The notes beneath the pieces were generated by a model. That model searched no databases, was not told the DNA's origin, and saw nothing but the letters and a program-made list of their open reading frames with translations. This document shows, piece by piece, positions 30,680 through 47,040 of a DNA stretch of 52,611 nucleotides. Both the position numbers and the translations under genes were made by a program. Origin of the DNA: Candidatus Rokuibacteriota bacterium. GTDB lineage: Bacteria > Methylomirabilota > Methylomirabilia > Rokubacteriales > CSP1-6. The stretch spans positions 1-52,611 of the forward strand of contig QHSQ01000111.1 of assembly GCA_003221615.1 (NCBI GenBank). Direction: 5' to 3'. Position 1 is the first letter of the stretch; each line of letters opens with the position of its first letter.

Positions 30680-31543
30680 TCACAGAACGATTTCCGTTCC
30701 GATGCCTTCGCGTGTGAAAAGCTCGAGCAGGATCGCATGCTGCTGGCTGCCGTCGATGATGTGGGCCTTGGCGGTGCCAGCCTCCAGCGCCCGGAGCGAC
30801 GACTCGACCTTCGGCAGCATACCCCCGTCGATCACGCCTTCCTTAATGAGGCGCTCCGCATCCTTCCGGGTCAGGGTGCTCACGAGCCGCCGGTCGACGT
30901 CGAGGATCCCTTGAACGTCGGTGAGGTGGATCAGCTTCTCGGCGTGCAGAGCCGCCGCGATATCCCCGGCGACGAGATCCGCGTTGATGTTGTACGTCTC
31001 CCCGCCGATCCCGACCCCGACCGGCGCGATCACGGGGATGACGCCGTTGTCCGTGAGGAGTCGGATGGCCTCGGTATTGACCGCCTCGACCTCACCCACG
31101 AGCCCGATGTCGACCTCTTCGCCGGTCGGCAACCGATGCGGCCGCCGACGCGCCCGGAGGAGGCCGGCATCCTTGCCCGAGAGGCCGATCGCCCGGCCGC
31201 CGTGGAGGTCGATGCGGGCGACGATCTCCTTGTTGATCTTGCCGACGAGCACCATCTCGACGATTTCGACCGTCTCCTGGTCGGTCACCCGCATGCCACC
31301 GACGAAATGCGGCACCTTGCCGAGCCGCTTCATCAGGGCGCCGATCTGCGGGCCGCCGCCGTGGACGATGACCGGGTTGATGCCGACCAGGTGCAAAAGG
31401 ATCACGTCCAGGGCGAACGGATCCTTGAGGTCGGCCCGCTCCATCGCCGCGCCGCCGTACTTGATGACGATGGATTTCCCGCGGAACTCACGGATATAAG
31501 GAAGCGTCTCCAGCAGGATCTCGACCCGCCGGGGGTCTATCAC
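30680..31543 (-). CDS. argB: Acetylglutamate kinase
   Basis: 287-residue amino-acid kinase phosphorylating N-acetylglutamate, usually the feedback-controlled step. Motifs: VIKYGGAAM (phosphate binding), VIVHGGGPQIGALMKRLG, RIDLHGGRAIGLSGKDAGL, YNINADLVAGDIAAAL and GGMLPKVESSLRAL. The start is the GTG at 31543-31541, which lies in the last copy of a 44-bp tandem repeat and overlaps the stop codon of the repeat-encoded mini-ORF by GTGA. Initiation may therefore depend on reinitiation from the repeat. Confidence 0.95.
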   Translation of the reverse strand: MIDPRRVEILLETLPYIREFRGKSIVIKYGGAAMERADLKDPFALDVILLHLVGINPVIVHGGGPQIGALMKRLGKVPHFVGGMRVTDQETVEIVEMVLVGKINKEIVARIDLHGGRAIGLSGKDAGLLRARRRPHRLPTGEEVDIGLVGEVEAVNTEAIRLLTDNGVIPVIAPVGVGIGGETYNINADLVAGDIAAALHAEKLIHLTDVQGILDVDRRLVSTLTRKDAERLIKEGVIDGGMLPKVESSLRALEAGTAKAHIIDGSQQHAILLELFTREGIGTEIVL

Positions 31544-31675
31544 AGGCGCGCCTCGCCTTTCGGGCTACGGCTGCGCACAGCCATCACAGGCGCGCCTCGC
31601 CTTTCGGGCTACGGCTGCGCACAGCCATCACAGGCGCGCCTCGCCCTTCGGGCTACGGCTGCGCACAGCCGTCAC
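31540..31675 (-). repeat. Three 44-bp tandem repeats with coupled 14-codon mini-ORFs between hslU and argB
   Basis: Units at 31541-31584, 31585-31628 and 31629-31672 are nearly identical. On the minus strand two units read MAVRSRSPKGEARL then TGA, and the first reads VTAVRSRSPKGEARL then TGA. Each TGA overlaps the next ATG (TGATG) or GTG (GTGA). A four-codon frame (MAVR, 31686-31672) links the hslU stop to the array, and the last TGA overlaps the argB GTG. Each unit also contains GGCTG-TGCG-CAGCC, able to form a hairpin, and the palindrome GGCGCGCC. The repeat is certain from sequence; translation of the mini-ORFs is inference. Confidence 0.9.
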
Positions 31676-31685
31676 CGGACAGCCA

Positions 31686-33049
<1,364 letters not shown>

Positions 33050-33053
<4 letters not shown>

Positions 33054-33145
33054 GAGGCCGGCTCGCACCGGGGGTGGCCTGAGAGAGGCACGACCCGGCT
33101 CCGCACGCCCGGTCTCGCCGAAGGCGCGACGGGACCCGGCGTCAC
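33050..33145 (-). repeat. Intergenic repeat copy with a 31-codon mini-ORF joining hslV and hslU
   Basis: 33061-33130 is a diverged copy of 33684-33760. On the minus strand a GTG at 33145 overlaps the hslV stop (GTGA) and opens a 31-residue frame containing [19 protein letters not shown]; its TGA (33052-33050) overlaps the hslU ATG (ATGA). The other copy keeps the same frame and a similar peptide. There is no ribosome-binding site. The repeat relationship is clear; translation is inferred. Confidence 0.6.
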
Positions 33146-33798
33146 AGGACTTCGACCGTCAGGTGGTCGTTGGTGAACACGCAGATGGTCGCGGCGACCC
33201 GCATCGCCTCGGTCGCGATCGCCTTGGCGTCGAGATCGGAGTTGGCGATGAGCGCCCGCGCCGCCGCGAGCGCGTAGGGACCGCCCGAGCCGATGCCGAT
33301 CAACCCGTCGTCGGGCTCGATGACGTCGCCGGTCCCGGACACGATGAACGAGTGCTCGCGATCGGCCACCGCCAGGAGCGCCTCGAGTCGACGCAGCACG
33401 CGATCGGAGCGCCAGTCCTTGGCCAGCTCGACCGCCGCGCGCGACAGGTTCCCGCGATGCTCCTCCAGCTTGGCCTCGAAGCGCGCGAAGAGCGTGAACG
33501 CGTCGGCGGCCGCCCCGGCGAACCCGGCCACGACCCGATCGCCGTAGAGCTTGCGCACCTTCCGGGCGCCGGCCTTGACGATGGTGTTGCCGATCGAGAC
33601 CTGTCCGTCTCCGGCGACGGCCACCTGACTACGGTGGCGTACCGCGACCACGGTCGTCGACCGGATCTGTTGTCGCGGCGACCGTGAGCCCGCCCTGGTC
33701 CGAGGGTGGCTTGCGAGAGGTGCGACCAGGCTCCGCGCGCCCGCTCTCTCCGAAGGCGCGGTGTGGCTCCCCACGCCCGTTCGTTCCCTCGCGCTCAT
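33142..33798 (-). CDS. hslV: ATP-dependent protease subunit HslV with repeat-derived N-terminal extension
   Basis: Core of 170-odd residues is a canonical Hsl[78 protein letters not shown]. The nucleophile should be the first Thr of TTVVAV. No ATG, GTG or TTG lies just before it: the codon three before that Thr is ATC (33666-33664), and the first GTG (33651) would delete both threonines. The only canonical start that keeps the nucleophile is the ATG at 33798, which overlaps the xerC stop (ATGA) and adds about 47 residues translated from an intergenic repeat. Either the extension is removed like a propeptide, or initiation uses ATC. Confidence 0.88.
33684..33760 (-). repeat. Intergenic repeat copy read in frame into hslV
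   Basis: About 77 bp similar to 33061-33130 and more distantly to the repeats at 46861-47037; the plus-strand core is GAGGGTGGC, then CGACCAGGCTCCG, then CCGAAGGCGCG. On the minus strand it is translated as [20 protein letters not shown] within the N-terminal extension of HslV, the same frame as in the neighbouring copy. Confidence 0.65.
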
Positions 33799-34676
33799 TT
33801 CGCGCGGGCGCGCGGGTGGGCGGCGTCGTACACGCGCATGAGCTGATCGGCGGCCACGTGCGTGTAACGCTGCGTCGTCGACAGGCGGCTGTGGCCGAGG
33901 AGCTCCTGGATCATCCGGAGGTCGGCCCCGGCGTCGAGCAGATGGGTCGCGAACGTGTGGCGCAGGGTGTGGGGACTCACGCGCCTGGTGATCCCGCTCA
34001 TCGCGGCGCTCCGCCGCACGATCGTGTGGAGCGACCGGACCGTGAGCCGTCCGCCGCGCTGGTTGGCGAAGAGCGCGCCCGCTCCGGCGCCTCGCCCGTT
34101 CAGATAGGCGCCGAGCGCGCTCGCCGCCCGGTTGCCATACGGCACGATCCGTTCTTTGCGCCCCTTACCGAGCACGCGCACCGTCTGCTGCGAGCGGTCG
34201 AGATCGTCGAGGTCGAGGCCGGCCAGCTCGGACACGCGGAGCCCGGTCGCGTAGAGAAGCTCCAGCACCGCGGTATCGCGCGCGCGTGCTGGGCCGTCGG
34301 GCGCCCTGGCTTCCATCAGGGACATCGCCTCGTCGATCGGCAGGAAGGAGACGAGCTTCTTCGGGGGGCGCGGGCCTCTCACCTCGCGCGCGACGTTCCG
34401 CTCGAGGACACCGCGCCTGACCAGGAACCGGAACCAGCTGCGCACGGCCGCCAGCTTCCGCGCGATCGTGGTCGCGTCGAGCCCACGCGCGTGCAGGTGG
34501 GCGAGGTAGCCTCGAATGGTCCGCGTGTCGACGCCGCCGAGCCAGGTGGCGGGATCGCCGCCTCCGGCGTACTGCGCAAACTCCAGGAGATCGGTCCGGT
34601 AGCTTCGGAGCGTGTGCGGCGAGGCATCCTTCTCGAACGAGAGGTGACGGAAAAACGCAGCCAGCGAATCCTTCAT
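33795..34676 (-). CDS. xerC: Tyrosine recombinase XerC
   Basis: 293-residue tyrosine recombinase for chromosome-dimer resolution. The N-terminal SAM-like core-binding domain (about residues 1-90) includes [18 protein letters not shown]. Catalytic residues are in [12 protein letters not shown] (Arg), [10 protein letters not shown] (Lys), [14 protein letters not shown] (His, Arg), [15 protein letters not shown] (His and the nucleophile Tyr). The ATG at 34676 overlaps the topA stop. Housekeeping context (topA upstream, hslV downstream, as in several other phyla) argues against a mobile-element integrase. Confidence 0.94.
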
Positions 34677-46840: not shown

Positions 46841-47040
46841 TTACCGAGTGCTCCAGCCCCGATCCGACCGAAGGTGGCGAGTGACAGGCACGCGTGGCTC
46901 CGTTTTATCGACGGCTTGAGCCCGGATTCGACCGAGGGTGGCGAGTGATGGGCACGCGTGGCTCCGTTTCATCGACGGCTTTGAGCCCGGATCCGACCGA
47001 GGGTGGCGAGTGACCGACACGCGTGGCTCCGTTCTTTCAA
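46841..47040 (-). repeat. Tandem repeats of about 64 bp with chained mini-ORFs between actA and actB
   Basis: Copies begin at 46861, 46925 and 46990 (the last partial); each has GAGGGTGGCGAGTGA-like and CACGCGTGGCTCCG cores. On the minus strand a TTG at 47040 overlaps the actA stop (TTGA) and encodes 23 residues including RSHACRSLATLGRIRAQ; its TGA overlaps an ATG (46972) that opens 43 residues starting MKRSHACPSLATLGRIRAQ and ends in TAA just before the actB ATG. The repeat core resembles those at 33061-33130 and 33684-33760. Translation is inference. Confidence 0.85.

Follow-up and report, generated by a model that had tools for sequence, protein, structure and literature searches.

MIRUs (mycobacterial interspersed repetitive units) share the orientation of the genes that flank them, and reportedly follow a DTGA insertion rule put forward by Supply and co-workers in 1997. 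Two papers describe them as mycobacterial repeats (PMC12548453; PMC2734929), with lengths of 40–100 bp and 41 locations on the M. tuberculosis H37Rv chromosome (PMC2734929). The MIRU junction rnc-fpg measures 358 bp, as against a few bp in non-tuberculosis mycobacteria (PMC2734929), and the elements appear to be mobile, inserting at start codons with minimal impact and carrying an ORF coupled at -4 (2025 review, PMC12548453). Our literature search gave, among the matches listed, no report of such repeats in Rokubacteria, which does not prove their absence, and none of such elements outside mycobacteria.

The window analysed here, a stretch of 52,611 nucleotides from Candidatus Rokuibacteriota, an uncultured soil bacterium, belongs to a genome of 7.24 Mb in 596 contigs. 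On its minus strand hslV, hslU and argB are consecutive, with the protein families of all three confirmed; upstream and downstream of them lie what we take to be xerC and argD, respectively. The preliminary description had named hslU (31686..33053, minus strand; TIGR00390, 654.7 bits, cut-off 362) and argB (30680..31543, minus strand; TIGR00761, 253.3 bits, cut-off 151.3), and both names hold above the curated cut-offs. The gap between the two genes consists of three 44-bp units and a 14-bp remnant (Tandem Repeats Finder: 31539-31675, period 44, 3.1 copies, 97% matches), and the unit core, at up to three mismatches, has three copies in the window and none in 100 shuffles. The hslU stop codon TGA (31688-31686) shares bases with a GTG (31689-31687) and an ATG (31686-31684). 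GTGA recurs on the minus strand at 31689, 31675, 31631, 31587 and 31543 (spacings 14, 44, 44 and 44), and these 4-nt overlaps connect in series hslU, the remnant ORF VMAVR (31672..31689; MAVR if begun at ATG), unit 1 with the 48-nt ORF VTAVRSRSPKGEARL (31628..31675), units 2 and 3 with the identical ORF VMAVRSRSPKGEARL (31584..31631 and 31540..31587) and argB, all on the minus strand and each small ORF closed by its own stop. GTGA links the remnant and unit 1 at either end, unit 2 is joined by GTGA/TGATG overlaps, and unit 3 terminates at the argB start, a GTG that overlaps the unit's stop. Since the hslU stop and the two inter-unit links read GTGATG, 1-nt TGATG links exist as well. These were among the links that the preliminary description had listed; its chain of overlapping ORFs on 44-bp tandem repeats is confirmed by Tandem Repeats Finder and the GTGA positions, with a 4-nt link additionally present at every step. 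The period of 44 equals 15 codons minus 1 and also 16 codons minus 4.

In GC-rich DNA, chance will frequently put a TGA behind an A, G or T, and because the unit copies are near-identical the chain in the window amounts to about three independent links. Taken alone, this junction is poor evidence for design; the strength of the case comes from comparing junctions and genomes.

The window units are diverged copies of a dispersed family with the core GAGCCGCAGCCGNAGGCGAGGCG. A search for this core at up to two mismatches was positive for 18 of 23 genomes from the window's taxonomic family and for one of 16 others; as a control, reading the pattern backwards gave one match across the 39 genomes. 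A narrower core resembling the window units matched four of the 39 genomes only at the same threshold, the pattern being too narrow. A second pattern, composed of both conserved ends and a closing RTGA, was searched in 59 genomes and gave 220 matches, distributed over 22 of 35 genomes of the taxonomic family and none of the 24 others (the control gave no match in any of the 59), with up to 64 in one genome and seven in the window's own. The hslU-argB units of the window deviate in sequence from this pattern, yet they align to the consensus: unit 1 scores 57, where 2000 shuffles reach at most 54, and the indels of the alignment (-3 in all, then +1, +1 and +1) sum to zero and restore the frame. 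The hslU-argB array would read as an old, diverged set of units of the dispersed family. Other units of the family precede hisH (protein over its NCBIfam cut-off), an mlaF-like gene (protein below its cut-off), uvrC and further genes.

The orientation of the units was surveyed in 100 stretches fetched around matches, that is, chosen by match, which together with the window comprise 1.82 Mb; genes were called with our own simple dicodon-model gene finder. On these calls the family sits mostly between co-directional genes and in sense orientation: of the 122 places, co-directional genes flank 90 in sense and 6 in antisense, divergent genes 13 and convergent genes 1, with 5 intragenic and 7 at contig edges. 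The sense bias of 90:6 has a binomial p of 2.5e-20, on a background in which 624 of 830 junctions of at least 20 bp are co-directional. All six antisense cases belong to genomes G016 and G026, without which the ratio is 78:0, a subtraction made after the data had been seen.

Chaining was scored by a strict rule under which, from the upstream gene A through the downstream gene B, each start codon must share bases with the preceding stop. The 90 sense places reduce to 81 distinct junctions, the remainder sharing a junction or having no complete neighbour. Strict chains are present at 42 of the 81; dinucleotide shuffles of the gaps, scored under the identical rule, give 22.1 (sd 2.7, maximum 29 in 100 shuffles), and gaps flipped in place give 21. 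Forty of the 42 chains include at least one relay ORF and two do not; among the forty, those of L174 and L244 pass via an ORF of full size (246 and 225 codons) missed in the gene calls. Relay units are joined by GTGA or ATGA, in rows of up to six (L236), and the relay peptides include MNVAVRAAAGGEASP (44 bp), MKVGRAAAAGEASQ (41 bp), VIVAVRAAAAAAGEASL (50 bp) and VNVVVRAERRPRRLGGARREASL (68 bp), each ending at a stop; another predicted unit peptide is VNVAVRAAAEGEASL. The 39 junctions that fail come from 12 genomes, with ten failures in G011, and among the failures listed several have their first start within a few bases of the stop (L162, L165, L168) or deeper in gene A (L168, L171). In architecture, the internal ORF of the family is predicted to be coupled to the neighbouring gene at -4. 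Three orthologous sets of junctions with gaps of 40–400 bp are chained in 7 of 11, 9 of 13 and 10 of 11 cases (shuffled: 3.4, 6.1 and 6.4), and at gaps of 10–39 bp the same sets show no excess over shuffles. Junctions of 30–400 bp that lack the core likewise exceed their shuffles (24 of 95 chained, 15.5 when shuffled). Relays therefore occur beyond this element, and either direct selection or other elements would be at work at such junctions too.

Comparison of species reveals empty and filled forms of the same junctions. Among 41 non-redundant hslU-argB junctions of Rokubacteria, 11 have a bare -4 overlap and 34 are strictly chained, bare overlaps counted as chained, and the number of units varies between species from 0 to 4. 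L040 is the empty form of the window's junction (...CTGTGATAGACC...), in which the argB start GTGATAGACC directly overlaps the hslU stop. G007 holds four 44-bp units which, on our reading, are unlike the window's in sequence (MASRSRSPKGEARQ, then a stop); the exact core GAGCCGCAGCCGAAGGCGAGGCG is present in one of them, and argB itself starts with unit sequence. The preliminary description had expected that units could be added or lost with the overlaps still reaching argB, which these relatives bear out. A -4 overlap is also found at 6 of 33 junctions of hisH with the presumed hisB and at 10 of 32 junctions of mlaF with the presumed mlaE. Six sites with a clean single copy have a gap of 40 (= -4+44; before hisH in G000, G020, G019 and G007, before mlaF in L295 and L307), and the two-unit site L174 has a gap of 84. 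Other middles also occur, such as a 65-bp insert (L286) and 50-bp units (L292), and hisB-hisH junctions carry 0, 1, 2 or 4 units depending on the species. In some hisB-hisH and mlaE-mlaF junctions the gap contains TAG or TAA stops and no chain, and junctions with a 4-bp gap, for example GTGAGCCTATGA (L258), resemble scars left by units since lost. In L283, L286, L292 and L293, which represent the same mlaE-mlaF junction in different species, subfamilies of the element retain its ends (approximately GCGAGCCG ... GAGGCGAGYCT) and differ in their palindrome-like middles.

A duplication of the target was sought at 51 distinct junctions, taken from the three orthologous sets and the 81 sense junctions and selected for having both a unit link and DTGA at gene B. 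The base at +1 after the DTGA of the first unit equals that of gene B in 31 of 51 cases (permuted 15.5; reached by 0 of 1000 permutations), the base at +2 in 24 (14.8; 6 of 1000) and the base at +3 in 29 (22.5; 8 of 1000), and from +4 onward the observed match is reached by at least 50 of 1000 permutations. The unit adjoining gene B behaves alike at +1 and +2 and more weakly at +3, with an extra excess at -1 (2 of 1000) and +5 (23 of 1000). When the very first link of the chain is compared with gene B the signal is weak (p 0.014–0.035 after TGA); the unit's own link is clearer. We read this as a short target duplication of approximately DTGANN. By comparison between species, the empty -4 sites and the duplication at +1 and +2 would place insertion at DTGA stop/start sites.

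Unit length follows 3n-1 in 136 of the 150 matches listed (out of 220), with 14 off the rule; the classes are 44 bp (73 matches), 50 bp (17), 59 bp (1), 65 bp (20) and 68 bp (25), and units of 41 bp obey the same rule. Among sense arrays, 29 of the 45 distinct tandem spacings leave a remainder of 2 on division by 3, and a subfamily with off-rule spacings such as 42, 43, 45 and 60 bp is found in G010, G016 and G026. The preliminary description had proposed the unit length in relatives as a check and a possible refutation: the 3n-1 relation holds up, extending to 41, 44, 50, 65 and 68 bp, with exceptions such as spacings of 42, 43, 45, 60 and 70 bp. L167 (7465-7679) contains an antisense array with a period of 69 (0 mod 3), through which one 118-codon ORF reads and links both genes. 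Across 108 distinct cores of the 44-bp type the bases are mostly near-fixed, including most third codon positions, whereas base 13, at the second position of its codon, varies freely (C 44, G 30, A 26, T 8). Since a second-codon base varies and most third positions are fixed, the peptide is not the conserved thing, and selection on it was rejected on the same grounds; what the family keeps is DNA identity and frame.

We regard the array, with a probability of roughly 0.8, as a small, dispersed and probably non-autonomous mobile element of Rokubacteria that would work like MIRUs. The element would insert at a stop/start DTGA and duplicate approximately DTGANN, by which a stop/start overlap would be restored at either end. 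On leaving gene A, ribosomes would then terminate and reinitiate through every micro-ORF into gene B, so that the insertion and any later tandem gain or loss should cost little. Insertions that interrupt the relay, or that point the wrong way, would be lost to selection, and tandem copies could subsequently be gained or lost with the relay uncut. Mobility and relay translation are what we infer here; the distribution, orientation, overlaps, insert size, duplication and frame from which we do so are read from sequence comparison.

The resemblance to MIRUs extends over several features. Both are short, scattered and intergenic (units of 41–68 bp in the present family), both have variable tandem copies and an internal ORF at -4, the present family by architecture alone, and with 90 sense to 6 antisense places the family also has their orientation. 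In both systems a junction is long with repeats and short without (for MIRUs, PMC2734929). The host differs, Candidatus Rokuibacteriota being another phylum and not mycobacterial, and the present family is documented by pairs of empty and filled sites, a duplication reaching 2 bases past DTGA, and frame-preserving length classes. On this basis the family appears to be a MIRU-type element in another phylum, its kind assigned by architecture and not by sequence homology. Overlaps of -4 with ATGA/GTGA, as seen in the relay links and at empty sites, are themselves standard for termination–reinitiation (PMC12548453); unlike the plain overlaps of operons, one overlap has here been multiplied by a repeat element into a series of micro-ORFs. 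There is about an even chance that the family forms an independent, non-mycobacterial class of mobile element whose target duplication is the stop/start overlap, each insertion adding a relay and in-frame tandem growth leading to genome-wide reinitiation chains that could set the product ratios of neighbouring genes.

Beside this reading, the preliminary description had suggested that the copy number of the units could be a tuning device for argB; in such a device, more units would pass fewer ribosomes on to it. Each reinitiation step is expected to lose ribosomes, and copy number at hslU-argB does range from 0 to 4 between species. The same element, however, also precedes hisH, the mlaF-like gene, uvrC and others, no tie was found between copy number and arginine or argB, and 11 of 41 hslU-argB junctions make do with the bare overlap, so that evolved tuning of argB specifically is unlikely. 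The other half of the suggestion, repeats growing at the junction without breaking the operon, is the better supported one. Coincidence would require only the frequency with which TGA follows A, G or T in GC-rich DNA, a tandem duplication then chaining automatically, and it draws on the 22 of 81 junctions that still chain when shuffled and on the near-identity of the three window units. The observed 42 of 81 nevertheless exceed all 100 shuffles and are twice the flipped control, and neither the 136 of 150 listed matches in five 3n-1 length classes nor the sense bias fits with chance, which we consider a very improbable explanation.

A repeat of the REP/RAYT type, a hairpin moved by a Y1 (TnpA-REP) transposase with the ORF chain as a by-product, resembles the present family in being short, dispersed and intergenic with a possible hairpin in its core. 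The near-invariance of the 108 cores, the location of the free base in a GNA loop and the covariation of core positions 4 and 21 (C-G 93, G-C 13; paired in 106 of 108, shuffled 82.6; the sole covarying pair) would suit it, as would the confinement of the compensatory G4-C21 form to G010, G016 and G026, each with one match to PF01797 (Y1_Tnp). This transposase family, however, was found in 6 of 35 genomes of the taxonomic family, those three included, and in none of nine genomes of the window's genus, nor in the element-rich G011, G020, G021, G025 and G032. Of six folds, all three of RNA and two of the three of DNA do not improve on shuffles, the sixth being the window unit folded as DNA (z -1.68, 14 of 200 shuffles as good), and both the strong sense bias and the 3n-1 lengths would be left unexplained; to our knowledge, sense orientation and overlapping ORFs are not features of REP. 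We rejected REP/RAYT for the window's genus on the missing transposase and consider it improbable for the family as a whole, although the subfamily of G010, G016 and G026 could be REP-like relatives. With five of six folds at shuffle level and a single covarying pair that stems from one subfamily, a structured RNA was likewise rejected, as was a known RNA, Rfam giving no match at E<=1 in window positions 31000-33900. A control of argB by an attenuator or by an arginine-rich leader peptide encoded in the repeats is suggested by three Arg in 14 residues with argB next in line; the same family, however, stands before histidine, transport and repair genes, its core varies at a second codon position and holds most third positions constant, and the Rfam search was blank. 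A leader of this kind was rejected because the family precedes genes of unrelated pathways, and is hardly credible.

The finding is real, and more general than the argB case from which it started: the family in Rokubacteria is new, with MIRUs as its known precedent. A second large family, in an uncultured phylum, would make insertion into coupling sites a general route for repeats within operons. The arrays would provide natural series of up to seven reinitiation steps (six units, L236), which would bear on how far ribosomes carry through chained overlaps. They also call for care in annotation, where such units risk being annotated as genes or misread as leaders with a regulatory role.

Several further repeats were noted. 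The hslV-hslU junction (window 33050-33145, minus strand) is, on our reading, also a relay, which joins hslV through GTGA and hslU through ATGA. In sequence it belongs to a second dispersed family, with 85% identity over 61 bp to the xerC-hslV junction and matches in L171, L172, L188, L236, L239 and others. The xerC-hslV junction (window 33651-33798, minus strand) carries a copy of this second family, and because that copy reads in one frame with hslV the start of hslV is uncertain. Arrays of units lie at contig ends in L166, L198, L215, L218, L222 and L240; tandem units thus seem to break assemblies, and true copy numbers may be higher. At window 46855-47033 a 64/65-bp tandem repeat of 2.8 copies, partly similar to L240 6264-6380, occupies a co-directional junction and forms no strict relay.
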